From Capnocytophaga catalasegens (lineage in GTDB: Bacteria; Bacteroidota; Bacteroidia; Flavobacteriales; Flavobacteriaceae): a stretch of 39,855 nucleotides of DNA. A model generated the notes under the pieces. That model did not search any database. It was not told the DNA's origin and saw nothing but the letters and a program-made list of their open reading frames with translations. The position numbers and the translations under genes were made by a program. Positions 4,783 through 30,539 of the stretch are shown here, piece by piece. Where the stretch lies: positions 1 to 39,855 of the forward strand of contig NZ_BPMA01000022.1 of NCBI RefSeq assembly GCF_026005215.1. Reading direction: 5' to 3'. The stretch's first letter is position 1. Each line of letters opens with the position of its first letter.

Positions 4783-5102
4783 TACCAAAAATGACTTTTA
4801 TCTCTTATTTCGTTCTTTAACTCAATAGTTTCCAATACATTTTCTTTGCCTAATTCTTTACACAAAAGCCCATAATAAAGCTGAATACTTTTAATGTCCC
4901 ACGTTTCGGTTACATCACCCTCAGATATTTGTGTATGGATAGGTAACCAATCTGAAAAACTATTATAAATAGCAACTTTACACAAAGAAACATCAACAAC
5001 TGGAAGATTAACTAATTTGTTTTCAAGTATAATCAAATCAATCTGTTCTTCTGTAACCCCGAATTTTTGTAACTTTATTTGTAAATATTCTTTTGTTGTC
5101 AT
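4782..5102 (-). CDS. Putative head-tail connector (adaptor) protein
   Basis: 106 residues. It starts MTTKEYLQIKLQKFGVTEEQ, a helical pattern seen at the start of many Bacteroidota phage adaptor-like proteins, and is helical throughout, as gp6/gp15-type adaptors are. It is the first of the four coupled neck genes. A 73-base gap separates it from the tail tube gene. Position supports a connector; the sequence alone does not prove it. Confidence 0.45.
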   Translation of the reverse strand: MTTKEYLQIKLQKFGVTEEQIDLIILENKLVNLPVVDVSLCKVAIYNSFSDWLPIHTQISEGDVTETWDIKSIQLYYGLLCKELGKENVLETIELKNEIRDKSHFW

Positions 5103-5175
5103 AGATTTAGATGTTAGTTAATAGGCAATAGTATATTTGTATAAAAACAAAAATCTATTGCCTATTTCTATCCAA

Positions 5176-5676
5176 TTAAGCTGTTTGCCCGATAACTGCT
5201 TTTTCTTTTCCATTACCTGGGTCAAGTACTGTGAATTTGATTTCTAACAAATACCCGTCATCTTGTCCGAATGTAGGTTTTGCTGTTACAGAACAATATG
5301 CAGCAGAAAAAACCTCTGCATTTTGTACGGTATTGATGATTTTAACGGAGTACTTTTTACTTGTACTCATTTTTTTGATTTTGAGAGTGCTTGTTGGTCC
5401 GTCCTCCTCAATGTCCCAAAACTTCTCTAAGTTCGATTTGTTAAGGTTCTTTACGGTAACGTTCCATATTAGTTTCCCTTCTTGTGTTAATTCATCAACA
5501 ACATCTCCGTTAATATCCTTCCATTCTTTTTTATCCCCTTCCTCTGTTTCTAATGACATTTCTTTTATTCGCCCAATAGATGCAAAAGAAGTAGCCATAG
5601 CGTTATTTGCTCCTGGTGTGCCAACTTGAAATTCTATACCATTCCAAGCGGTTGCGGTTGTTTCTTTCCAAGCCAT
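5176..5676 (-). CDS. Major tail tube protein
   Basis: 166 residues. Features of tail tube subunits: an N-terminal MAWKETTATAWNGIEFQVG arm, alternating strands (GRIKEMSLETEEGDKKEW; LTQEGKLIWNVTVKNLNKS) and an insertion-type beta pattern with a closing LLEIKFTVLDPGNGK segment. It polymerises into the tail tube around tape measure. It lies directly after the capsid gene and before the connectors, although tail tube genes usually follow the connectors. It is separated from both neighbours by about 75 bases, with no clear promoter seen. Confidence 0.7.
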   Translation of the reverse strand: MAWKETTATAWNGIEFQVGTPGANNAMATSFASIGRIKEMSLETEEGDKKEWKDINGDVVDELTQEGKLIWNVTVKNLNKSNLEKFWDIEEDGPTSTLKIKKMSTSKKYSVKIINTVQNAEVFSAAYCSVTAKPTFGQDDGYLLEIKFTVLDPGNGKEKAVIGQTA

Positions 5677-8914: not shown

Positions 8915-10705
8915 TTATTCAGCTTTTTGTAAAAATCTAATATAAAGCGACTTGTCTATTATTTTAATTTTCCCTTCTATCTGTTGAAGTATTAAACGTG
9001 GTTTGTCTTCAATATTTGTGTCCCATAAATAAAGTTCATCAAAAGATTTGTTTTTCAATATTTTAGAAAATTCTTTACTTATACTTTTATTCATATCAGA
9101 TATAAAACTTAATTGAACGTATCTACCTGTTTTTTCTGCTCGCATTTTAGCTAATTTAATACTTAAATCAGTATCTAACGAAACATAATCGGCGCGTATT
9201 TTTTTTCCTGAAAGTTTTTTGACAAGTTGAGCATTACTATGAATTTTATCTGCTGTACCGTCGTTTATTCCGTCAATAATAGTTCCCCAATTCTCTGTAA
9301 GAGCTTTTTCTCGTATCTTTTTACTTAAATAACTACTTTCTTCATGTACGAAATTAGCGGCTAACATAATAAGTTCTTTATTATGTGAATGCAATAATGT
9401 TTTATATTCAGGTATCATTGATTTTATTTTATCGGGGTCTATAACCAATAATCCATTAGGATATGATAATAACCCACTTTCAGTAAGAGTTGATTTGCCA
9501 TTAGCAGGAGCACCTCCTAACATATACACTTTATCAGATTCTGTTTTTTTTATAGAGAAATATTCTTTTATTATTTTTTGGTGTAGTATTTTTCTATCAA
9601 ATATCCATTCTTCATTTTTCTTGAATATGTCCTCTGTTGTTTTATATTGTCTTATATAATCTTTTATTTCTTCAATCGTTAATATTTTTTCTTTCGGAGT
9701 GAATTTTTCATTTTCTTTCAACCATAAAGGCAAACTTTGAGCGTTATCTATTCGTTCTTTATTATCACTAACCCATTGTTTAAAGTTATCAGGAACATCT
9801 GTAATGTATTCTTTTTCGGTTTCTTTTCCTTGCAAATCTTTGATAAAATCATCAACATTTTGAAGAATAGGGACGGTGTAACAACGGCATTGCGGGTGCC
9901 AACCAAGAAACTGAAAATCTTTTGGATATTTTCCTTTAAGATTTTCACATACGGAACAACCAAATACATTATTGCTGCGTTTGATTTCATAACCAAGTAC
10001 AAAATCAAATTGTTTATATTTTTCCATATCAGACGCACGATACGCCATATTTACTTCGGTACGAGCCACACGTATAGCGTTTTTGTAACTACTACGATAC
10101 ACACCTTGACCTACATTGTGTTTTTGAGCCCGTTTTGATAAATGTAAATTACCCCGTTTGTCCCGAACTCTACGAAATAATAAATTAGGTTCTTGCAGGT
10201 ATTTACGTATATCTCGGCTAATTTGTTGTGCAGAACGCCCTTCTGAAAGTCCTAAATCAAGGCTCATTTCGATTTCATTACGAAATTGATTGGTGTATTT
10301 CCATATCCTATCTGAAAGGTTTAATCCGTTTGTTTTTCGTGTTTGAAATGCTTGTAGAGCTTCATCGTTGCGATTTGTGTAAGCTGTTATTTGTTCTTTG
10401 GTAAGCAGTTTTCGTTTTAGGTAAGGTGTTACTATGCTATTATTTTTTTTCACAGCCTCTAACCATTCTTTTTTAGTTGCTTGGTTGATAATTTCTGTTG
10501 CTTTTTCAGAAAAAGATTTAAGCAATATATCTACCTGTTTTTTTATCTTCGGGTACTTACTAAAATCAAATGGTTTTTCATCGTCAAAACCTTTAATATC
10601 GGAAGACAACACACTTACCTTCTTAATTATTTGATGATATAGCCTATTTATTTTTTTTGTCACCCTGTCAGCAGACGATATTTGTTTTTTGTCAATTATA
10701 TTCAT
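8915..10705 (-). CDS. MuF-domain minor head protein fused to zeta-type toxin kinase
   Basis: 596 residues. Residues ~130-280 form a MuF/SPP1 gp7 domain: ARTEVNMAYRASDMEKYKQ, then C-SVC (two cysteines) and a HPQCRCYTVP ending, the usual Cys/His signature. From about residue 390 comes a zeta-toxin-like P-loop kinase: MLGGAPANGKSTLT (Walker A), VIDPDKIKSMIPEY (Asp catalytic region), VHEESSYLSKK, DGINDG, and MRAEKTGRYVQ with the expected arginines. All key positions appear intact. Zeta toxins phosphorylate UDP-sugars such as UDP-GlcNAc and block wall synthesis. MuF proteins are packaged in the virion head, so the toxin could be delivered on injection. It lies straight after portal, the normal MuF position. 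The link between the domains holds ~100 residues of charged helix. Confidence 0.85.
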   Translation of the reverse strand: MNIIDKKQISSADRVTKKINRLYHQIIKKVSVLSSDIKGFDDEKPFDFSKYPKIKKQVDILLKSFSEKATEIINQATKKEWLEAVKKNNSIVTPYLKRKLLTKEQITAYTNRNDEALQAFQTRKTNGLNLSDRIWKYTNQFRNEIEMSLDLGLSEGRSAQQISRDIRKYLQEPNLLFRRVRDKRGNLHLSKRAQKHNVGQGVYRSSYKNAIRVARTEVNMAYRASDMEKYKQFDFVLGYEIKRSNNVFGCSVCENLKGKYPKDFQFLGWHPQCRCYTVPILQNVDDFIKDLQGKETEKEYITDVPDNFKQWVSDNKERIDNAQSLPLWLKENEKFTPKEKILTIEEIKDYIRQYKTTEDIFKKNEEWIFDRKILHQKIIKEYFSIKKTESDKVYMLGGAPANGKSTLTESGLLSYPNGLLVIDPDKIKSMIPEYKTLLHSHNKELIMLAANFVHEESSYLSKKIREKALTENWGTIIDGINDGTADKIHSNAQLVKKLSGKKIRADYVSLDTDLSIKLAKMRAEKTGRYVQLSFISDMNKSISKEFSKILKNKSFDELYLWDTNIEDKPRLILQQIEGKIKIIDKSLYIRFLQKAE

Positions 10706-12183: not shown

Positions 12184-13701
12184 TTAAAAAAACAATCCTT
12201 CCAAATCTTGCGAATTTATGTTCTGATTTGGATAAAACGTATTTGCCAACGCATCGAATTTGTCAGTAGAGCGTCGCAAACGCTTTTTTATATCCTCTTT
12301 GGCTTCAATCTGTACGCTTCCATTCGAGGCAAATTTCCAACGTATGGCGGTAGCCTCTTCCAGAAAATCATCATCTTTGGGCAAACACGGGTTGTTATTG
12401 TTTTTTGGATTTAACCAATCACGCACCGCCCAAAACAGATATGCTCGCATATTAGCGAACGTATAAACACCATTCACGTCTTTTAAATCTTTTGCTCCCT
12501 CGCTAAACTTACAAGAAACGGCATTGTCAAATCCTAACTCCTGCAAACGAGAAAACACCCCCGCACCCTCGCCAATGGTGTCTATGTAGGCTTCTGTTTT
12601 AGGATTTTTAAGTTCGTTAGCCACAATTCCGCTGATGTGCATATGGTCAGCCTTTCCTGCCGATTGGTGCAGTATAAACGGATGTACATAATGATTCTGC
12701 CGAATGCAAATCACACTGCTATCACGCCCCATACCTGCCACGTCCACGCCTAACTTTTTTTCATGGAAATTGTGCGGATTTTCCTGTTGGTATTTCTCCC
12801 AATTGGCAAAGGCTTTTTCTATCCATTCGTAAGGAATGAGCGTATCTTCGGAAGCCTTTGGGAACATTCCCAATACTTTCACTCGAAACAAATCATTGGG
12901 GCGGTATCGCTGATTTTCAAACGTGAAATCGCCCTCTGCTTCGTTAAATTCACTATCGGAAATAGATACGCACCACGTATCAATTTTATCTTTCACCCAA
13001 TTGTAATCCACTTGACCAGGTATAATGATTTTCTTCTGCAATACATTTTCTGCATTGAGCGAATTAAGACGGAATTTCTTAAATCGTGCCGACTTCATCG
13101 CATTGGCTGCGTATCCTGACGTCGTATTCGGATTGAAAACAATCAAAAGCCGAGAATTCCCTTGCAAGTTTCCCTCAATGGCGTTAAATGTTACTTCTGA
13201 AATACCTGACGCTTCGGTAACAACAAACATTGTGTTGGTTGCGTGAAACCCTGACCACGCTTCAGTAGCGTCGTCTCCTGCCTTAAATCCAGTCAAAAAC
13301 CATTCTTCGTAATCGGTACGTATGTCGTTTGCTACCAATCTGCCAGGTAGTATTTTCGCTGAACGGTATAGCCTACGTACCTCTGGGGTCATAATGTTGG
13401 TTACTTGTCGCCCTGTGGGAGCAGTCATTGCTACTTTGGTATTTTCAATCATATTTCCGAATTTGTCAAACTTCGGAGTAAGATACAAAAAACAAAGCGA
13501 AGCACACGCCGAAACAAAATCTTTGCCTCGTGCCGTGCCACTCGCTACCGCAGTCATTGGATTGGTTTGTACAGATGTAATAATATCTTGCTGTTCTTTA
13601 TCTAAGCGAGCTTTTAGTACATCACGCACGAATTTGTTCCAATCAGATTGCCACGATTGAAAAGTTTGTATAACCTTATTTTCTATTTGTAAGTTACTCA
13701 T
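12184..13701 (-). CDS. terL: Terminase large subunit
   Basis: 505 residues from the ATG at 13701, which overlaps the terS stop (ATGAGTAA). The frame is open a further 15 bases. ATPase motifs: VASGTARGKDF (Walker-A-like, near residue 55), LLIVFNPNTTSG (coupling motif) and FVVTEASGI (Walker B and catalytic Glu). Nuclease motifs: LGVDVAGMGRDSSV, AYIDTIGEGAGV and the C-terminal RSTDKFDALANTF. It packages DNA into the prohead through portal. Length is normal and no disruption is seen. Confidence 0.9.
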   Translation of the reverse strand: MSNLQIENKVIQTFQSWQSDWNKFVRDVLKARLDKEQQDIITSVQTNPMTAVASGTARGKDFVSACASLCFLYLTPKFDKFGNMIENTKVAMTAPTGRQVTNIMTPEVRRLYRSAKILPGRLVANDIRTDYEEWFLTGFKAGDDATEAWSGFHATNTMFVVTEASGISEVTFNAIEGNLQGNSRLLIVFNPNTTSGYAANAMKSARFKKFRLNSLNAENVLQKKIIIPGQVDYNWVKDKIDTWCVSISDSEFNEAEGDFTFENQRYRPNDLFRVKVLGMFPKASEDTLIPYEWIEKAFANWEKYQQENPHNFHEKKLGVDVAGMGRDSSVICIRQNHYVHPFILHQSAGKADHMHISGIVANELKNPKTEAYIDTIGEGAGVFSRLQELGFDNAVSCKFSEGAKDLKDVNGVYTFANMRAYLFWAVRDWLNPKNNNNPCLPKDDDFLEEATAIRWKFASNGSVQIEAKEDIKKRLRRSTDKFDALANTFYPNQNINSQDLEGLFF

Positions 13702-14038
13702 CGGTTGTACTTGCAATCTTCATCAATTCAAAGAAAGGATTTACTGTTACTTCTTGCTCGACTTTTTCAACGTAGCCTCTGTGTTTGCCTTTCGTTTTTA
13801 AGAAGAAGATAAGACTTGTTGTATCTCCTTCTTGTATATTGCTTAACAATTTACTTTCAGCAAAATCAATTATACTTTCTTCTGCTTCTTTTAAAAGCTC
13901 GTTCAGCTTTGGACGTTTCTCCCTCCAAGAATAAAAGGTTTTGCGAGTAATATTTAACGCAGAGCAAGTTGCTGAAATATTACAGCTTTTTTTCGCGTAA
14001 ATATCTGCGATAATTTCATCTTTTATTTTCTTGCTCAT
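13694..14038 (-). CDS. terS: Terminase small subunit
   Basis: 114 residues. The N-terminus has a helix-turn-helix (IIADIYAKKSCNISATCSALNITRKTFYSWREKRP) as in DNA-recognition domains of small terminases. It is followed by an oligomerisation-type helix (LKEAEESIIDFAESKLLSNIQEG). KTKGKHRGYVEK and the C-terminus then probably bind the large subunit. Stop and start overlap with terL. It starts four bases after the ATP-grasp stop, so the enzyme cassette and terminase appear to be one transcription unit. Confidence 0.85.
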   Translation of the reverse strand: MSKKIKDEIIADIYAKKSCNISATCSALNITRKTFYSWREKRPKLNELLKEAEESIIDFAESKLLSNIQEGDTTSLIFFLKTKGKHRGYVEKVEQEVTVNPFFELMKIASTTDE

Positions 14039-14042
14039 TTTT

Positions 14043-14912
14043 TTATTGTTTATTTTGTTTATTTTGTCTGTTCGTTTTAAGAATTAAATGTATCATTTCT
14101 TTATACGAAATATTAGAGTTTAATTCAAAACATTTGTATAAATATCCATCTTTCTTTCCTAATCCTGCACATAGGTTAATTTCCAAAACATAGGCGTTCC
14201 CTTTTGCGTCTATTCTGAAATCAATCCGAGCGTATGAGTTTGCTTTTATAACATCAAAAACTTTAATTGCAGTCTGTATGGTTTTGGATTCATTAAAGGG
14301 GGTATATATTGCATTTCTTCCTAATTTGGTTTGAAAATCTAATATATTTGTATCAGCATTAATTTTCATTCCATAAGCATACACTTTCTCGTGATTCTTT
14401 ATTACCGCTATTGAGACATCTTCCCCATCAATATATTCCTCTATCAGATTGCAGCAAGAATGATATTTTTCTTTTAATTCTATGAGTTTGCTAAACACTT
14501 CTGTTTTGTTTTTACAAATAGAATTTTTATCAACACCTATACTGTCTCCTAATGAAAGAGGTTTTACAAAATAGGTAATTCCGTTGTCTTTCACTTGTGT
14601 ATAAGTAAAAGACTGAGGCACCAAAATATTATATCTTCTTAAAATTTCTTTTAATGCTTCTTTATTGTCATCGTATTTTATTGTTTCGGACTTTTCTCCT
14701 ATAATGTTAATGTCCAAAGTATACAGATAGTCAATGATTACATTGTTTTTTGTACGAATAAACGCAGTATCTCCTTTTTGTATTTTTTTTAAACATTCCA
14801 ATTTATCTACAAAAATAACATCAAAATCAATCACACTTTTTAAATCGTTATGATGTGTTTTATTGAAAAGTCTAAACTCTTCTTGCTTAGTTGTTACTAT
14901 CCAAGTTTTCAT
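14043..14912 (-). CDS. ATP-grasp ligase (D-Ala-D-Ala ligase-like) of the enzyme cassette
   Basis: 289 residues. C-terminal ATP-grasp motifs: ITYFVKPLSLGDSIGVDKNS (~131-150, nucleotide-binding Lys and the S-x-GV loop), NLIEEYIDGEDVSIAVI (adenine pocket strand), and SYARIDFRIDAKGNAYVLEINLCAG (~232-256, metal-binding Asp, Glu and Asn). The N-terminal ~90 residues are a Rossmann-like preATP domain (DVIFVDKLE; TAFIRTKNNVI). Such enzymes join a carboxylate to an amine or thiol through an acyl-phosphate. Its start lies inside the preceding ParB-like gene (26-base overlap), so the two are co-translated. Substrate is unknown; a second amide-forming enzyme (17225-17614 / 15584-17197) in the same operon suggests a common product. 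A small tail (NRQNKQNKQ) is low complexity. Confidence 0.8.
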   Translation of the reverse strand: MKTWIVTTKQEEFRLFNKTHHNDLKSVIDFDVIFVDKLECLKKIQKGDTAFIRTKNNVIIDYLYTLDINIIGEKSETIKYDDNKEALKEILRRYNILVPQSFTYTQVKDNGITYFVKPLSLGDSIGVDKNSICKNKTEVFSKLIELKEKYHSCCNLIEEYIDGEDVSIAVIKNHEKVYAYGMKINADTNILDFQTKLGRNAIYTPFNESKTIQTAIKVFDVIKANSYARIDFRIDAKGNAYVLEINLCAGLGKKDGYLYKCFELNSNISYKEMIHLILKTNRQNKQNKQ

Positions 14913-15594
14913 ATTCCAAAGCCTTTTTTGCTAATTGTAAAATTTTACTAAAACAAACATTTGAAGATTTTATGTGATATTTTCTCCCTATTTCTTTTAT
15001 TAGTTTTAATAGCATTTCTTCGTTATTGTCTTGATTTGCTAAAATAATCAATTCGTTTTTTTGCATATCTTCTTTAACGTTTCCAATAAGTTCATCGAGT
15101 GTGTCTAAATCTTCTTTATAAAGAATTATAGAAATAGAATAATGCTCTGATATTGGCACTATGGAAGCTGAAAAAGTGTCAATAGTTCCAATTTCTTCTG
15201 TGTCAATGTGAGCAAATTCTTTAAAATCAATACTTGCTATTTGTTCAAAAAGTCGTTTTAAAATGCCTTTATCATCTTCTCCGTGTAACGAATTATGAGA
15301 TAATTGAATGGCTATAATTTCATCTTTTGACAAATTTTCCTCGTTAGCATAGATGCAGGGTATTTTTGTATATCCGTTTCTAACACAAGCCTCATACCGA
15401 TGATGACCTCCTATGATTTGATATTTTCCATTTTCAGAAAGTTTTACACAGGTAATTGCTGTGCTTAACCCACTCTTTTTTATATTTTGTGTTAGCTTAT
15501 TAAAACTTTCCTCCGACATCTTATTTGCATTGAGAGGAGCAGGAATAATATCCTCTACACTAACGTATTCTAATTTCCATTTATTACTTTTCAT
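14887..15594 (-). CDS. ParB/Srx-fold protein of the enzyme cassette
   Basis: 235 residues. The first ~100 are a ParB/sulfiredoxin domain: YVSVEDIIPAPLNANKMSEE, then TQNIKKSGLSTAITCVKL, and IIGGHHRYEACVRNGYTKIPCI, with the GG-x-HRY-x-A nucleotide-binding box (here GGHHRYEA). The fold includes CTPases of ParB proteins, a free-serine kinase and sulfiredoxin. The remaining half is helical and unrecognised (LSKDEIIAIQLSHNSLHGEDD; KNELIILANQDNNEEM). Single ParB-domain proteins next to terminase genes are common in phages, often without known function. The start overlaps the end of the upstream gene by 11 bases. It could be a kinase or DNA-binding adaptor for the cassette; neither can be decided here. 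Confidence 0.75.
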   Translation of the reverse strand: MKSNKWKLEYVSVEDIIPAPLNANKMSEESFNKLTQNIKKSGLSTAITCVKLSENGKYQIIGGHHRYEACVRNGYTKIPCIYANEENLSKDEIIAIQLSHNSLHGEDDKGILKRLFEQIASIDFKEFAHIDTEEIGTIDTFSASIVPISEHYSISIILYKEDLDTLDELIGNVKEDMQKNELIILANQDNNEEMLLKLIKEIGRKYHIKSSNVCFSKILQLAKKALEYENLDSNN

Positions 15595-17197
15595 TGTTTT
15601 TTTTCATTTTTTGATAGGCTTTTATTATTTCTTGGTTCTCTTTGTAAAGTCCAAAGTCTGTTTCATACATCAAAACGCTTTCTTTTTCAAGTTTTACTTT
15701 TTTGAAAACACCTCTGTATTTCATTGAAACAGGTTGATTGGTGTAAACTTTTGTATAACAATTATTTACTTCCATTTTTGTTTTTCGTTGCAGAATTTTC
15801 TTAACAACTTGACTTTGGATACATAATAGAATTAATTTTGATAATCTAAACACTTGATTATTTGTTGAAAAATCAGACAACAGCCATAAATCGTAATTGG
15901 TTTCTGAACCTTTTGGAAAATTAAATCCAAAACCTCCTAAACAATAGTTTTCATAAAAAACGAGAAAACTAAAATAAACACCACTTGTTTTATGTACTTT
16001 TTTAACGTATTCCCTTTGAATTACGCTAAACTCCGATGGTTTTACAGGAATTATTTTTAGTTTGTTGTGGTTTGATATATCTAAATCATTAGGAGGAATT
16101 TCTATACTTATGCACTGCTGTTTTTCTTGCTTTTGTGTTATTTTTGTTTTCGCTTTTTGCGAAGAATAAAAAATGCTCTTTCCTTGCTTGGCTATTTTAT
16201 TAACTTTTTTAAAGTAAGCGTTTTCACTTACAAACATAAATTTTTGATTCTCTCTTAAACCATCTAAAACACCATAATAGCTAACATTAAAAGGATTTGT
16301 TTTTTTTGAATAATCAGAATATTTGACCAGTGAAACAATAACACTTCGTGTTTTAGAGTTGTTCCCGTTCTGCCAAAATATGTTTTCTTCATTTTGTAAA
16401 GCCTCATATAATGTTCCAAAAACATATGTTGAATTTTCAAAAAGGTGTATTAATTTCTCGGTAACCTTTTCAGCCTTTTCTAAACTCTCATTTAATTTTT
16501 CTATACGACTTTGTAGCTCTTTTTTTGCATACTGCGTATTTCTTGCGTATTTGTGCATTTTGAAAAACAACAATAAGCAAGTTATTTGCCTTGCAGGAGT
16601 TTCATTGTTAAACCCTTCTAAAAAATCAAAAGTTTTACAGTATTTAATTTTTAATTTATTCTTCCAAATTCTGTAAATAATATCGTTAAATTCATCTACA
16701 TTATAAATGGTTATTTTTGTTTTTTGATACATATTTAGCTCTGTATGAAAAAGAAACGGATTAATACACGCTAAATTATTTGAGCATTGTTCCGATAAAA
16801 TTTTAATCATCTTAGAACTTAATGGTTTGGCTTTGGCTACGAATGCCTCGCGTGGGTGATGTTGATTTCCACTAAAAATTAAAGGTTCTGTTTTCTTGGG
16901 TAAAGGTCTGCTAAATTTTAATGCCTTTTGGAATTTTTCAAAACTATCAATTTGTTTAAAATCTTCCTCTGTATGAGTTAAAGCGTATTGTATGAATTTG
17001 TAGGAAAATAATATTGCATTCTCTACCTCTGAAAAATCATCAGTATTGTTGTAAGCTCTAAACTCAATGGTTTTTCTTTTAAAAAAACTTGGTATGTTTA
17101 TCAAATGCCTGATATAACCTTTGGTCATTGAGTTGGCAAAAACATTAAAAAGGTCTTTTTCAATTTTAGCTTCCTTAACTCTTTGCAGGTATTCCAA
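15584..17197 (-). CDS. Second half of split amidoligase, fused to GNAT (Mom-like) acyltransferase domain
   Basis: 537 residues from a TTG at 17197. It is the in-frame continuation of the gene at 17225-17614, separated only by TAA at 17225-17227 and nine sense codons. The first ~130 residues complete an amidoligase: LINIPSFFKRKTIEFRAYNN (the TxEFR strand) and a helical FSYKFIQYAL segment. A coiled-coil linker lies near 205-235 (KKELQSRIEKLNESLEKAEK). The last ~170 residues look like a GNAT acyltransferase: SGVYFSFLVFYENYCLGGFGFNFPKGSE, LWLLSDFSTNNQ and VYTNQPVSMKYRGVFKK, resembling the Mu Mom group that modifies adenine. Without the stop the product would be about 676 residues. The Mom likeness is moderate. 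Translation of this half requires readthrough or an internal start (TTG, or ATG at 17128). Confidence 0.6.
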   Translation of the reverse strand: MEYLQRVKEAKIEKDLFNVFANSMTKGYIRHLINIPSFFKRKTIEFRAYNNTDDFSEVENAILFSYKFIQYALTHTEEDFKQIDSFEKFQKALKFSRPLPKKTEPLIFSGNQHHPREAFVAKAKPLSSKMIKILSEQCSNNLACINPFLFHTELNMYQKTKITIYNVDEFNDIIYRIWKNKLKIKYCKTFDFLEGFNNETPARQITCLLLFFKMHKYARNTQYAKKELQSRIEKLNESLEKAEKVTEKLIHLFENSTYVFGTLYEALQNEENIFWQNGNNSKTRSVIVSLVKYSDYSKKTNPFNVSYYGVLDGLRENQKFMFVSENAYFKKVNKIAKQGKSIFYSSQKAKTKITQKQEKQQCISIEIPPNDLDISNHNKLKIIPVKPSEFSVIQREYVKKVHKTSGVYFSFLVFYENYCLGGFGFNFPKGSETNYDLWLLSDFSTNNQVFRLSKLILLCIQSQVVKKILQRKTKMEVNNCYTKVYTNQPVSMKYRGVFKKVKLEKESVLMYETDFGLYKENQEIIKAYQKMKKNNEK

Positions 17198-17224
17198 AGA
17201 AGGGGCTGGACACCACCAAGTCTC

Positions 17225-17614
17225 TTATTTCCAACTATCGATGTATGCTATTTCTTGGATATATGGAGCTGTATAATAGCTCAAATAAAAAACTTTTTTC
17301 AAATCGGAAAGAGAAAAATCACCAGCGTAAATATGAACGTGCAGGGCTTGAATCCAAGTAACTTTTCCCCCTTTTTCTTTAAGATTTTCAAAAACAGATT
17401 TTAGTAATTTTCTATCCTCTTGACAAAGTTTTAATGGAGGAGAATTAACCTCTCCTCCATATTCCATTGAAAAAGTAGAACGTTTGCCATCTGTGTTTGT
17501 TATGGTTTCTTCTTTGCTCCAACTAAATCCCATAGGCAAAGAAACCGCTTTTTTATTCACATCGGCAAATTCAAATTCTACTCCAAATGTCCTTTCTGTT
17601 ATTTTTTTTTGCAT
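17225..17614 (-). CDS. Amidoligase (COOH-NH2 ligase), N-terminal half, ended by an in-frame stop
   Basis: 129 residues, about half the family's usual ~300. Family-like motifs: TFGVEFEFADV at the start (the GxExE strand), FSMEYGGEVNSPPL (the E-GGEV-x-S-PP region), and ALHVHIYAGDFSLSDLKKVF (the conserved H-V-H strand). It ends in TAA at 17225. Downstream codons in the same frame continue the family pattern, so a single nonsense change is the simplest explanation. Amidoligases of the glutamine-synthetase fold form amide bonds. It directly abuts the DUF488 gene (TAAATG) and is expressed from the late promoter at 18043-18080. Confidence 0.7.
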   Translation of the reverse strand: MQKKITERTFGVEFEFADVNKKAVSLPMGFSWSKEETITNTDGKRSTFSMEYGGEVNSPPLKLCQEDRKLLKSVFENLKEKGGKVTWIQALHVHIYAGDFSLSDLKKVFYLSYYTAPYIQEIAYIDSWK

Positions 17615-18028
17615 TTAAAACAAAGTTAATTGTTCAGAATTACAACTACAATTGCCTTTCTTTTCTGTTCCGTCAAATTCTGTTACTTTAATCCCTAATT
17701 TTTCTTTTATCCAATCGGCTACCAAATGCCGATGACAAAAATCATTTGGTCTTTCAAAGCAAAGCAAAGCAATGTCTTTTCCTTGTGAAACAAGATTGAT
17801 GATTTGCTTTATTTCGTTAGGGTCTAATCTTCCTAATATTTCGCTGTTAAATCTTCGTGTGTACTCCTCTTTTCCTGATGTATTAAAAAGAATGTCTTTC
17901 GTTGGAGCAAACATTTTTAAATGCACCCATTTTCTCCAACGAGGAGGATACAATGATATATTCACTGGCAGTACTCCTGCTTCTTCTAATTTTTTAATGT
18001 TTCCAAAATAAGATGTATATACTTTCAT
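17615..18028 (-). CDS. DUF488-family protein, first gene of the enzyme cassette
   Basis: 137 residues. It shows the family pattern: VYTSYFGNIKKLEEAG at the start, ISLYPPRWRKWVHLKM with aromatic/basic residues, and LLCFERPNDFCHRHLVADWI, where two cysteines (C-x8-C-H-R-H) mark the conserved pocket. The C-terminal tail has a CSCNSE cluster ending LTLF. The family is widespread, its chemistry is unknown, and it often lies near nucleic-acid-modifying genes. Its late promoter with inverted repeat is 15 bases upstream, so this gene opens the operon that runs through terL. Confidence 0.75.
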   Translation of the reverse strand: MKVYTSYFGNIKKLEEAGVLPVNISLYPPRWRKWVHLKMFAPTKDILFNTSGKEEYTRRFNSEILGRLDPNEIKQIINLVSQGKDIALLCFERPNDFCHRHLVADWIKEKLGIKVTEFDGTEKKGNCSCNSEQLTLF

Positions 18029-24070: not shown

Positions 24071-26593
24071 TTATAATTCGTGTTTTAAAATATCCTCCAA
24101 ATCAAATAATGTTGGTGTGTTTATTTTATATTCTATCGATTTTAAGTAAAAAAGCCCATCATCATAGTATTCTGGATTTAATTCAAAACTGATAGCTTTG
24201 CGTTTGAATTCTAATGCTTTGTAGGCAGTGGAAAACAACCCGCCAAAAGGGTCTAATATCGTATCTCCTTCATTGGTAAATCTGTATATCAGACGTTCTA
24301 TAATATCAAATTGTAAAGGGCAAATATGCTTTTCTTTTTTACGATTCACTTGATTAGCATTTAGGGTGAGCATTCGGTTTATATCGTCCCAAACTAAATT
24401 GCTGTTTGACTGTGGTGGCAAGGTCATAAATAACTTACTTAGTTTGCCCTGAGCTTCTAATTCGTTTGATATTTCCAAATGCTTTTGAAAATCGTAAATG
24501 GTTTGCTTATCGTAATTTTTCCAAGAATTAAAAACGGTTTTCATTTCGGCAATGTTTAATTCTTCGGGCGTTAAAAAACGATTTCCGTTTGATTTCCAAT
24601 AAGCGTGAGCGTCCAACTGCCAACGAGCCAAATCGTATTCTTCTTTGCTTTTTGTTACGGGAATATCGGCGTAAGCGTTGTTATCCTCGGTAGGTGCTTT
24701 TCTGAATAGCAATACATATTCAGGAAGCCCAACGCCCATTTTGGTTGCGTCTTTGCATTGCTCTCCCCAAGTGAGGCGATATGTTTGATTATTTTCACGC
24801 ACTACGTCGGTAGTAATGGTTATTTTCCCAATCAAATAAAATCCGTGCTTTTTGAAGTGAGCTACCGTTTCGCCCGAAAAATCATCAATGGTAGTAAAAC
24901 ACGTTCCGTTTTGGTGCGAATATCGGATTCTGTCCTTTACGTGGATAGCTGCAATTCTTCCAGGATTTAACACTCTTAGCAGATTAGGGGTTAAAAAATC
25001 CATTTGTTTGAAAAATTCATCGTTGCCGTCATTATGCCCGAAATCATTATAATTGTCCGAATATTCGTAATGGTCTCCAAACGGAATAGATGTTAAAATC
25101 ATATCCACTGAATTGTCTGAAAGGCGTTCGGTCGCCACAACACAATCTTGATTCCAAACTTGAGCATTGCCCACTTTATGATGTCGTTCTTTGTTAAAAA
25201 TTTGTCTTTTCATATCTGATGTAATTTTATCGTTATTAAGTCCGTAATTACGTACAAGGTCAATCATTTGGGTTTGTAACTCGATGTGTTTTCGCCATTT
25301 TTCTTTTAATGTTTTTAGTACTTCTTCTTCATTTTGAGTATATAAAATGTAGATATGCACCTCTTTATTTTGTTTAAATCGATAAATACGATGTACTGCC
25401 TGAATGAAATCATTAAATTTGTAATCAATTCCTACGAAAATAGCTCTGTTACAAGCATGTTGGAAGTTGCATCCAGAACCTGCGATTTTGGGTTTTGTAG
25501 CCAAAATTTGATATTTTCCATTGCTGAAATCAATTAGCAAATTTTCTTTCTGCTCGTTGGGTTGCGAACCAAATACACTCTTTACGTTAAAATCTTTAAA
25601 TTTCCTTTCTATTTCTTGTCTCTCACTCTCCAAATGATGCCAAATAATATACCTCTCATTGGGGTTTTCTTGTACAATTTCAAGAGCTTTTTTTACTCGA
25701 ATTTCTATACTTTCTCTCTTTTCCTTTGAAGTTTCCAAAAGACTCTTAGTGGTATTCTTAAAAAGCACAAGATTTCCCTTTTTATCAAAGATAGGTTCAT
25801 CTGATAAGTTTTCTATTAATATCTGGTGAATATGCATTTGTGGCAGGTTGTAGCCATCGTCAGCATATCCCAAATCAGAGGGTTTGTTCAAAAACACCGC
25901 CCAAGTACTTACCCATTTCCAAAACTCATCTTTTTTGTTAGGATATAAAGTAAGTTTGCCCGCCTTTGTGCTATCTCGTTGGAAAAATCGAGTAAGAGCG
26001 TGTCCTCTATCAATTACACCCAAAAACGAAGCATAATTTAAGATTTCGATAAAATCATTTGGTGTTGGGGTAGCCGTAAATACAAACCGATAGGGTACAT
26101 TAGCAAAATGATTTAATATGTAATCCGTGGTTTGTGTTTTTAGATTTCTGATAGCCGAAGCCTCATCAAAGGATACTCCTGCAAATAAACTACTATCAAT
26201 ATCGCCTTTGCGAACACGTTCGTAATTTGTTAGGTAAATTCCGTTATCCTGAATATCTGCCGTTTCGGTGTCGGTGATGTAGTGCATTGGATATGGAACG
26301 CCTATCATTTGAGCATCACGTTTGAACTCTCCTACTACGCCCAAGGGCATGCAGATAAGAAAAGGTTTGTTTTCTTGCTTAATCACTGCGGTTGCTATTT
26401 GCAGTTGCATTACCGTTTTGCCCATTCCGAACGAAGCAAAAACTGCCCTGCGACCTCCTTGCAACGCCCAATGACAGATGTCTTTTTGATGAGGAAGTAG
26501 GTCATTAAACGATGTTTCCTTATCAAAATTAAATCCGAAAGATTGAGCCGATACGGTTTTGTTTTCTAAAAATGTTTTGTAATCGTTATTCAT
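24071..26593 (-). CDS. SF2 helicase fused to DNA methyltransferase
   Basis: 840 residues. Residues ~1-450 form an SF2/Snf2-like helicase: VFASFGMGKTVMQLQIA (Walker A), SFDEASAIRN (DEAx box, here DEAS), FTATPTPNDFIEI (motif III) and the C-terminal QAVHRIYRFKQ (motif VI). From ~470 a beta-class amino-methyltransferase follows: MILTSIPFGDHYEYS in place of the usual TSPPY catalytic motif, and ILDPFGGLFSTAYKALEFKRKAISFELNPEYY (SAM-binding FxG). The motif IV variant S-I-P-F keeps a small-Pro-aromatic core. It probably methylates adenine or cytosine amino groups in phage DNA, possibly coupled to translocation. No nuclease domain is present. The start ATG is 60 bases after the tRNA-like element. Confidence 0.85.
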   Translation of the reverse strand: MNNDYKTFLENKTVSAQSFGFNFDKETSFNDLLPHQKDICHWALQGGRRAVFASFGMGKTVMQLQIATAVIKQENKPFLICMPLGVVGEFKRDAQMIGVPYPMHYITDTETADIQDNGIYLTNYERVRKGDIDSSLFAGVSFDEASAIRNLKTQTTDYILNHFANVPYRFVFTATPTPNDFIEILNYASFLGVIDRGHALTRFFQRDSTKAGKLTLYPNKKDEFWKWVSTWAVFLNKPSDLGYADDGYNLPQMHIHQILIENLSDEPIFDKKGNLVLFKNTTKSLLETSKEKRESIEIRVKKALEIVQENPNERYIIWHHLESERQEIERKFKDFNVKSVFGSQPNEQKENLLIDFSNGKYQILATKPKIAGSGCNFQHACNRAIFVGIDYKFNDFIQAVHRIYRFKQNKEVHIYILYTQNEEEVLKTLKEKWRKHIELQTQMIDLVRNYGLNNDKITSDMKRQIFNKERHHKVGNAQVWNQDCVVATERLSDNSVDMILTSIPFGDHYEYSDNYNDFGHNDGNDEFFKQMDFLTPNLLRVLNPGRIAAIHVKDRIRYSHQNGTCFTTIDDFSGETVAHFKKHGFYLIGKITITTDVVRENNQTYRLTWGEQCKDATKMGVGLPEYVLLFRKAPTEDNNAYADIPVTKSKEEYDLARWQLDAHAYWKSNGNRFLTPEELNIAEMKTVFNSWKNYDKQTIYDFQKHLEISNELEAQGKLSKLFMTLPPQSNSNLVWDDINRMLTLNANQVNRKKEKHICPLQFDIIERLIYRFTNEGDTILDPFGGLFSTAYKALEFKRKAISFELNPEYYDDGLFYLKSIEYKINTPTLFDLEDILKHEL

Positions 26594-28963: not shown

Positions 28964-29593
28964 CTAATAAAACATCGAACTTTTGTGTAACTCCAAAACT
29001 TGGCTATTTTCGTGAGCATTTGCTCTAATAAAAGCTCGTGCTTGTTGCCAACTCAGGTGTGTTCGTTCGCTTCCGAAGGCGTGGGTAAACGTGCCGTATC
29101 TCTGACTTTCCTCTTGTGCCTCTTGTACTTTCATTTCATCGTAATTGTGTTCGATAGCATACAAATCATATCCTTTTGCCGTGATGCCTTTCAGATGTGC
29201 CGTGTCAGTAATATGAAATATTTTCTTATCATCTTTAAAAATTCGCCAACCACAATTCGGCACGTCGTGATATGCTTTTACGGGCGAGATTCTAAAATCT
29301 CCATAGTCGTAAAGTTTCCCGATTTCCAAAACATCAATGTTTTTAAGGTTTGGCAACTCTTCAACCAGCCAAGAGCAACACGCAATGCGTAAGGTCGGGC
29401 GATGGCTTTGCAATATCTGTAAGGTTCTTAAATTCAAATGGTCGGAATGTTTATGAGTTAAAAGGACGATTTTAATTTCTTTCAGATAAGGTTGCAAAGC
29501 CTTGAATGATACGCCACAATCCACGAGGATTTTTTTATCGTAAATTATGGCGTTGCCACTACTGCCCGAACCGATTACGTTTGCTATTCCCAT
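28964..29593 (-). CDS. Metallo-beta-lactamase-fold hydrolase
   Basis: 209 residues. GSGSSGNA near the start, LLTHKHSDHLNL (the H-x-H-x-DH metal motif, ~55-66), a conserved Asp (HITDTAHLKG) and late histidines (YAIEHNYDE; LELHKSS). The layout matches the exonuclease/phosphodiesterase branch found next to RecT in many phages, where it is thought to supply the nuclease partner of the annealing pair. Its place between the SSB-like protein and RecT supports that role. It overlaps the next upstream gene by 10 bases. Confidence 0.8.
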   Translation of the reverse strand: MGIANVIGSGSSGNAIIYDKKILVDCGVSFKALQPYLKEIKIVLLTHKHSDHLNLRTLQILQSHRPTLRIACCSWLVEELPNLKNIDVLEIGKLYDYGDFRISPVKAYHDVPNCGWRIFKDDKKIFHITDTAHLKGITAKGYDLYAIEHNYDEMKVQEAQEESQRYGTFTHAFGSERTHLSWQQARAFIRANAHENSQVLELHKSSMFY

Positions 29594-29804: not shown

Positions 29805-30539
29805 TTACAAGTCTTCAAAATTGATTTGCTTTTGTTGTTGTGGGGCTACTTGTGAGGGTTGCTCCGTTTCTGCGGGATCAGGTTGATTGATAACCTCTTT
29901 ATCAACAACTTCTCTATGAGAAATATCTATAACATTCTGTTGCTCTTCTTGCGTGTACATCGCTCCGAGTTGAGCAGGGAACGCCTCTCGTAATGCCTGA
30001 ACCTTTGCTACCTTTGCAATCATTGTAGCTCTCTTATCATTCCAACTGGACTGTTTTTTGTCATACTCTTCAATATTGACTTTTGCAACAACGGGCTTTA
30101 ATCGGTCTTTTCTATACACTTTTGCCCAAGCTCCTAAAATCTCATCTGTTTTTAGATAAAAATTACCCTCAACTTCGATAACTGCTTCGTTTCGTTTCAA
30201 AATCAAACCCGCTTCCAATCCGTTATATTGTTCGTTGGCTTCGGCACGTTTCATTAACGCCTCTTTACTGACAATCATTTGTGCGGGTGTGCTTCCAAAT
30301 TTGATTAGATAGGCTTCATTCAAAAAAGGATTTAACTTATTGAATTTGCAAATGCTCATAAATTGCATCAAATCTTGGTCGGTAACTGCTCCGTTGCCTT
30401 TGGTCAAATAATCTCTGATAATTTGATACGAAAGTTTTATGTTTTCTCCTGCTACCTCGTACTCTACAACAGGATTTTTTTCTTTTGTTGCTACTGCTGA
30501 TGTGTTTACTTGTGCTTCCATTTTCTTATAAAATTTCAA
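29805..30539 (-). CDS. RecT/Bet-family ssDNA-annealing recombinase
   Basis: 244 residues. Family-like stretches: LSYQIIRDYLTKGNGAVTDQ, LMQFMSICKFNKLNPFLNEA and AYLIKFGSTPAQMIVSKEALMKRAEANEQYNG (split here by short turns), and GLEAGLILKRNEAV, which together mark Bet/RecT proteins. The tail is Gln/Pro-rich and disordered. Start choice: the frame begins at 30539, 14 bases inside the DUF1351 gene; the second Met at 30521 is the alternative. It anneals single strands in phage recombination together with the SSB-like and metallo-beta-lactamase proteins. Confidence 0.85.
   Translation of the reverse strand: MKFYKKMEAQVNTSAVATKEKNPVVEYEVAGENIKLSYQIIRDYLTKGNGAVTDQDLMQFMSICKFNKLNPFLNEAYLIKFGSTPAQMIVSKEALMKRAEANEQYNGLEAGLILKRNEAVIEVEGNFYLKTDEILGAWAKVYRKDRLKPVVAKVNIEEYDKKQSSWNDKRATMIAKVAKVQALREAFPAQLGAMYTQEEQQNVIDISHREVVDKEVINQPDPAETEQPSQVAPQQQKQINFEDL

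Follow-up and report, generated by a model that had tools for sequence, protein, structure and literature searches.

Why should a phage carry a set of amide-bond-forming enzymes directly beside its DNA packaging genes? The question is raised by a contig of Capnocytophaga catalasegens (NCBI RefSeq assembly GCF_026005215.1, contig NZ_BPMA01000022.1, positions 1 to 39,855), in which genes for a DUF488 protein, a composite amidoligase/Dam-like/GNAT-like protein, a ParB-fold protein and an ATP-grasp ligase follow one another on the minus strand and lead into the small terminase gene (terS) and an open reading frame (ORF) of the size of a large terminase gene (terL). These 39,855 nucleotides, here called the window, form the entire contig 22 of a 2.9 Mb genome that is 99.98% complete, and read as a temperate-type phage, with genes for a tape measure protein, a major head protein, a DnaB-type helicase, a CI-like repressor, RecT, and portal and head proteins. 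The gene set is a real, conserved system. Its function is best read, with a probability that we put at about one half, as a modification system that the phage encodes together with its packaging genes and that ligates an amino-acid- or opine-like group, probably onto phage DNA, around the time of packaging. The parts concerned are the following, with E-values against Pfam and PHROGs families.

17615-18028, minus strand: DUF488 (N3a) protein, 137 amino acids, first gene of the cassette (Pfam PF22751, 5e-13; DUF488, 1e-7)
17225-17614, minus strand: Amidoligase_2 N-terminal part, 129 amino acids, ending at an in-frame TAA (Pfam PF12224, 3e-12)
17225-17227, minus strand: the in-frame TAA, within the amidoligase domain (from the reading frame)
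15584-17197, minus strand: remainder of the fused protein (C-terminal part of the amidoligase, Dam-like-phage2, GNAT-phage-like), 537 amino acids, TTG start (PF12224, 0.003; PF22556, 2e-18; PF22559, 5.6e-30; phrog_2443, 1.5e-48)
14887-15594, minus strand: ParB/Srx-fold protein, 235 amino acids (ParB_N, 8e-9; phrog_7405, 5e-52; phrog_498, 6.5e-17)
14043-14912, minus strand: ATP-grasp ligase of the D-Ala-D-Ala ligase type, 289 amino acids (Dala_Dala_lig_C, 1e-19)
13694-14038, minus strand: terminase small subunit, terS (phrog_309, 6e-13)
12184-13716, minus strand: probable terminase large subunit, from position and length (sole family match phrog_5902, function unknown)

The DUF488 gene abuts the amidoligase ORF, the 15584-17197 ORF overlaps the ParB gene, and the latter overlaps the ATP-grasp gene. 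A sequence-only reading of this region had described an overlapping gene set running into terS and terL and including an intact amidoligase-GNAT protein. The genes and their order stand, but the amidoligase is not continuous with the GNAT-like domain, as the TAA at 17225-17227 interrupts the frame. The same reading had overlooked the Dam-methylase-like domain in the middle of the 15584-17197 ORF.

Relatives were sought in viral contigs with a five-sequence alignment, which retrieved 304, and in genome contigs, which yielded 126, the best 80 of each being read; a viral scan with the single window protein as query found no relatives. In sampled genomes the GNAT-like family is rare, being present in one of 100 near-relative genomes (the source genome itself) and in 4 of 395 genomes of the phylum, source included. 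Two forms of the system emerged. The core form consists of a protein of about 440 amino acids, in which a Dam-like domain is joined to a GNAT-like one, accompanied by ParB and in most cases by DUF488, and it spans many phyla, with titles naming Deltaproteobacteria, Streptomyces, Bacillus, Planctomycetota and Chlorobiaceae, and also Gordonia phage Clawz. The fused form corresponds to the core protein with an amidoligase added at its N-terminus. Titled genomes carrying it (L097-L112) are of Bacteroidota type, except for a 'Clostridia' metagenome-assembled genome (MAG), L104; L108 belongs to a Candidatus genus. The fused set comprises 65 loci and the core set 100, of which 12 lack the start of the gene (5' side) and are thus of uncertain form, leaving 88. 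Nine pairs of fused loci have identical proteins, some pairs being one contig held in two collections, and a 95% identity cut leaves 49 fused proteins.

The constancy of the neighbourhood was assessed in loci with enough flanking DNA (71 core and 55 fused), counting genes within 3 kb. ParB was present in 55/55 fused and 70/71 core loci and DUF488 in 53/55 and 54/71, respectively, whereas a terS like that of the window accompanied 54/55 fused against 5/71 core loci, and an ATP-grasp gene 27/55 against 0/71. The same gene order recurs in distantly related phages, and co-occurrence in other phages, proposed beforehand as a test of the cassette, is thereby strongly confirmed. The position beside the terminase, which had also been pointed out, holds across the fused loci although their large terminases belong to three different clusters: among all 65, the terminase is window-like in 45 and falls into two other clusters in 9 and 7 (representatives of both match terminase families), with none found in 4. 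The cassette has thus been retained across changes of terminase. In core loci, ParB has other terminase families in its vicinity: ten terminase-like proteins, chosen by eye in eight loci and hence indicative of the range of families and not of their frequency, all match PHROGs terminase families.

The new element of the fused form, absent from the core form, is an exchangeable amino-acid/opine slot. Clustering of neighbouring ORFs yielded four families almost confined to fused loci, which were counted within 4 kb on the same strand. Family C2 comprises opine dehydrogenases (Octopine_DH in Pfam, 7e-28 and 8e-32) and matches N-(1-D-carboxyethyl)-L-norvaline dehydrogenase (PDB 1bg6) over nearly its full length (E 2e-32). 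Family C8 resembles saccharopine dehydrogenase/lysine-ketoglutarate reductase, with a full-length match to alpha-aminoadipic semialdehyde synthase (PDB 8dda, E 8e-61) and a Pfam AlaDh_PNT_N match. Enzymes of the opine and saccharopine dehydrogenase types join an amino group reductively to a keto acid. C2 and C8, though of different families, would share this chemistry within the same operon, which makes an N-carboxyalkyl amino acid the probable building block. Family C0 is weakly racemase-like; its lysine K30 is invariant (14/14) and may be the lysine that holds pyridoxal phosphate (PLP). Family C5 gathers mixed small proteins, three of seven tested matching canonical acetyltransferase families and four matching nothing; its automatic label 'CysCl', given from appearance only, was dropped for this heterogeneous cluster.

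The slot of the 65 fused loci holds C2 with ATP-grasp in 22, C0 with C5 in 21, C8 in 13 and C0 with ATP-grasp in 5, the opine dehydrogenase and C8 never being found together. ATP-grasp stands alone in three (the window, L044 and L045), and in L036, which is cut upstream, the sole slot match is a C5 match within the locus's own ORF, open at its 5' end. A separate supply gene is therefore present in 64/65 fused loci, or 48/49 after removal of near-copies, and in 0/88 core loci with an uncut gene; four of the 12 cut core-type loci (L047, L048, L051 and L109) do have supply genes and resemble cut fused loci. In relatives, the presence of opine dehydrogenase, saccharopine-dehydrogenase-like and racemase-like genes in the same operon supports the earlier proposal that the group is amino-acid- or peptide-like.

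These distributions bear on two other explanations. It could be supposed that the cassette makes a released small molecule, such as an opine-like conjugate acting as nutrient, signal or exclusion factor, with the Dam-like and ParB domains in a regulatory role, since both dehydrogenase types, the racemase-like protein and the ATP-grasp ligases are small-molecule enzymes. Yet the core form, devoid of such enzymes, still keeps ParB and mostly DUF488, so that what all loci have in common is not a pathway for small molecules, and this explanation is improbable. It could also be supposed that the genes are mere passengers, lacking a joint function, in a hotspot beside the terminase. Phage accessory genes do generally cluster at such sites, and the copies in the window and in L111 are broken; but the gene order is preserved across many phyla, fused and core forms differ from each other as whole units, and nearly every fused locus has its slot filled. 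On the gene-order and slot data the passenger explanation was set aside as very improbable, the least credible of those considered.

A tree of the 49 fused proteins requires 9 changes of slot type, against a mean of 26.5 after shuffling. C8 forms one clade, C2 accounts for three changes inside one clade of 20, and C0 rows are scattered over deeper branches. The content of the slot has therefore been swapped several times while the attaching enzyme was conserved. The tree is a quick one with long branches (that of L060 most of all), and the window and L036 have an unusual letter make-up. The window groups with L011, which has C0 and C5, with a support of 94, its exact placement being unsure owing to the long branches.

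The individual proteins of the window were compared with known families domain by domain. The N-terminal amidoligase part scores 47.4 bits against Amidoligase_2 (cut-off 22) and keeps the conserved residues R8, T9, G11, E13, E15, G53, G54, E55, N57 and H94, although the TAA means that it is not part of a single intact chain. Amidoligase_2 also matches 37/37 scanned fused relatives at E up to 10, the best at 1.5e-21, and phrog_2443 ('amidoligase enzyme', 801 positions) is matched by both the amidoligase and the GNAT parts. The Dam-like-phage2 domain covers residues 100-274 of the 15584-17197 ORF; among the fused relatives, 29/37 match DAM-like-phage2 and 20/37 DAM-like-phage1. The GNAT-phage-like domain forms the C-terminal end of the same ORF. 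The DUF488 protein scores 49.8 bits (DUF488-N3a cut-off 27) and keeps C90, E92 and C98-H99-R100, which at least 85% of the 119 aligned rows share. For the ParB-fold protein, ParB_N gives 35.8 bits (cut-off 26.3), the P-motif arginine R66 is shared by at least 85% of the 153 rows aligned, and phrog_498, a DNA methyltransferase family, matches residues 4-135. The best PDB match of the ATP-grasp protein is a D-Ala-D-Ala ligase (5.7e-9). A search of solved structures with profiles of the Dam-like-GNAT and fused proteins returned nothing meaningful, and one with the DUF488 profile returned nothing.

From the observed domains, gene order, slot exchange, motif loss and stop codon we infer the following catalytic steps, DNA acceptor and protective purpose. 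The supply enzymes would make an amino-acid-derived building block, which in two subtypes would be an opine- or saccharopine-like N-carboxyalkyl amino acid and in the others probably an amino acid in the D form or otherwise processed with PLP. Amide-bond formation is the established reaction of both amidoligases and ATP-grasp enzymes. In loci that have one, the ATP-grasp ligase may extend or activate the building block, and the amidoligase half of the fused protein would use ATP to form an amide bond. The Dam-like half, its DPPY motif lost, would present the acceptor, most probably a base flipped out of the DNA, for the GNAT-like end to complete or add an acyl transfer. ParB might serve as a nucleoside triphosphate (NTP)-dependent factor for DNA loading or targeting, and DUF488 as a cysteine-dependent processing enzyme. 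Phage DNA would thus be decorated before entering the head, either on numerous bases or close to the packaging site, and be protected from nucleases. DNA is favoured as the acceptor because the Dam-like domain and ParB are constant partners and because of the position beside the terminase. Further pointers to DNA are the relation of ParB to a PHROGs family of DNA methyltransferases, the published fusions of phage ParB folds to such enzymes, and the ParB genes found beside Mom-type genes in other phages.

A more specific and decidedly tentative proposal is that Bacteroidota phages attach opine-type conjugates of amino acids (N-carboxyalkyl amino acids and relatives) to their DNA by amide bonds. 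The attaching enzyme would stay the same while the supply enzyme (opine dehydrogenase, saccharopine-type dehydrogenase, racemase-like or ATP-grasp) is exchanged to alter the group, perhaps outrunning modification-dependent nucleases. If true, opine-like groups on DNA would represent a chemistry that, to our knowledge, has not been described for genomes, and the presence of amidoligases and ATP-grasp ligases beside phage terminases would be explained. The exchangeable slot predicts different products in different phages.

Several observations weigh against the main reading of the cassette. The DNA acceptor itself is deduced from the context of domains and neighbours. Motif IV could be read by pattern in 66 of 89 core proteins (23 being unreadable), as FLPT in 25, FPPF in 21, FPPT in 7, FAPT in 5, YPPF in 4, three single forms and DPPY in one, meaning that the methylase motif DPPY is absent from 65/66. 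In the fused form no PP motif was seen by eye in the alignment, and CSGNF-type, NDVSLYS and DPPY motifs were likewise unseen there, while the first half of the core protein retains a CSGNF-type motif and NDVSLYS. The loss of DPPY suggests that the Dam-like domain may have lost its DNA chemistry; in the simplest reading it would bind a base without transferring a methyl group. The racemase-like assignment of C0 is weak, with a Pfam Ala_racemase_N match of 4e-5, slightly under the cut-off, in one of five proteins and nothing in the other four, and a best PDB match to D-3-hydroxyaspartate aldolase at E 0.025. The window copy is broken and has ATP-grasp alone in the supply slot, and locus counts are not independent events, because the loci are related to one another and some are identical.

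The label 'Mom-like', previously given to the GNAT-like domain, also found no support. Pfam Mom (PF25680) matches 0/57 family members at E up to 10, with HMMER filters dropping most weak matches, and hhalign gives probabilities against Mom of 28-30% over 25-29 columns for the core form, 0.15% for the fused form and 8% for both together. As controls, Mom was compared with five other cassette families, giving 0.11-0.21%, and with a canonical GNAT profile built from three sequences, giving 5%; with the core GNAT-like domain that profile reached 1%. Kinship with Mom was consequently rejected for want of a significant match in Pfam or in two hhalign runs, by a test of little power, as the canonical GNAT profile itself reaches just 5%. 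The canonical glycine-rich acyl-CoA loop (RxxGxG/A) was not seen by eye in the alignments, where RLSKL lies near the expected place.

The same enzymes might instead place the amino-acid-derived group on a protein, such as the terminase, portal, capsid or a host protein, which we consider unlikely but the strongest of the alternatives. Amidoligases and ATP-grasp enzymes often act on peptides, the cassette adjoins terminase and portal genes, and a survey of jumbo phages (PMC7824862) assigns phage GNATs and one family of ATP-grasp enzymes a predicted role as protein modifiers. The constant Dam-like domain and ParB partners nevertheless fit DNA better, and the linked large terminases fall into at least three clusters, so that no single terminase substrate is conserved. 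Another alternative, also unlikely and ranked behind the protein acceptor, is that the core (DUF488, Dam-like-GNAT and ParB) modifies or caps the DNA ends made by the terminase, the amino-acid group being the end cap. A terminase neighbourhood constantly accompanies the fused form and is met again in core loci, and Burroughs and Aravind (2023, NAR Genomics and Bioinformatics), treating the rhodanese-phosphatase superfamily, reportedly predicted DNA-end processing for some DUF488-clade enzymes. Against this, a domain resembling a base methylase would be unexpected in a reaction confined to ends, and no end-binding domain was recognised in the cassette.

As to the window itself, the Amidoligase_2 part and the 537-amino-acid ORF share one frame, divided by a single TAA after codon 129, and the ORF that follows starts with the TTG at 17197. 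In 63/64 other fused loci this protein is encoded by an uninterrupted frame. In the remaining one, L111 (7563-9621, from a goat omasum MAG), the gene is split at a different place, between the amidoligase and Dam-like parts. When 49 relatives and the window were aligned, all but three of the residues kept in at least 90% of rows proved to be present in the window, before as well as after the stop. This survival of conserved residues suggests that the stop is recent damage or a sequencing error; read-through of the TAA as a coding device was set aside, since those 63 of 64 relatives do without a stop in this gene. No C0, C2, C5 or C8 match was found anywhere in the window. With the stop in the fused protein and no racemase-like, opine- or saccharopine-dehydrogenase-like gene found in the contig, this copy of the cassette is probably inactive.

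It could be asked to what extent the system was already known. The core domains are in Pfam (PF22751, PF22555, PF22556 and PF22559), both Dam-like types being named, with matches above the cut-offs; as the Pfam names mention phages and DNA adenine methylase, others must have grouped them earlier. Compared with that core neighbourhood of phage DUF488-N3, Dam-like, GNAT-like and ParB domains, the fused form described here has the same domains and adds the exchangeable slot for amino-acid enzymes. No description of the cassette or of its slot was found in the literature searched, as judged mostly from titles and abstract openings.

With the Mom adenine modification of phage Mu, the cassette shares a phage gene, a GNAT-type enzyme and a proposed DNA target, but it differs from it, apart from the missing Pfam match, in the fusion of Dam-like and amidoligase domains and in the additional amino-acid enzymes. 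Mom-type genes themselves adjoin ParB genes in Microbacterium phage MenE, Arthrobacter phage Sicarius2 and further listed Microbacterium phages; in MenE (L178, 3469-4621) and Sicarius2 (L187, 1-864) the ParB gene overlaps or abuts that of the Mom-type acetyltransferase. The ATP-grasp protein has the C-terminal ligase domain of D-alanine-D-alanine ligase, but it is shorter, is encoded in a phage operon and scores far under every listed NCBIfam Ddl cut-off. According to PMC12704722, phage ParB folds are often fused to DNA methyltransferases and able to bind NTPs, one bacterial ParB-acetyltransferase fusion binds guanosine triphosphate, and an archaeal fusion of DUF488 to a helix-turn-helix domain binds cytidine triphosphate. 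Like the prophage ParB-DNA methyltransferase fusions, the cassette links a ParB fold to a methylase-type domain in phages; unlike them, it does so with separate genes and a degenerate methylase-like domain. The jumbo-phage survey (PMC7824862) and a survey of polyvalent proteins (PMC5512222), as far as the consulted parts go, place phage GNAT, ATP-grasp or ParB domains in other contexts.

Some loci depart from the usual layout. L009 (9214-10563) encodes the sole readable core protein with an intact DPPY, and its DUF488 gene lies on the opposite strand. In L045, a DUF4417 gene (4866-5591; Pfam, 9e-33) is found between DUF488 and the amidoligase; PMC12704722 reports DUF4417 fused to ParB folds in phages. 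Lak-group Prevotella phages have a DUF488 protein 42-46% identical to that of the window (L007, 8001-8399), and in the one stretch of Lak-C1 searched under the standard code no other cassette gene was found, the ORF list under code 15 being inspected by eye only.

Three further features of the window deserve mention. A head-morphogenesis-type protein (8915-10705) has a C-terminal part matching the Zeta_toxin family (Pfam, 3e-16), a single ORF of 840 amino acids (24071-26593) joins an SNF2-type helicase to an N6_N4 DNA methylase, and a gene for a beta-lactamase-fold protein (28964-29593) adjoins that for RecT (29805-30539), the two resembling a recombination pair.

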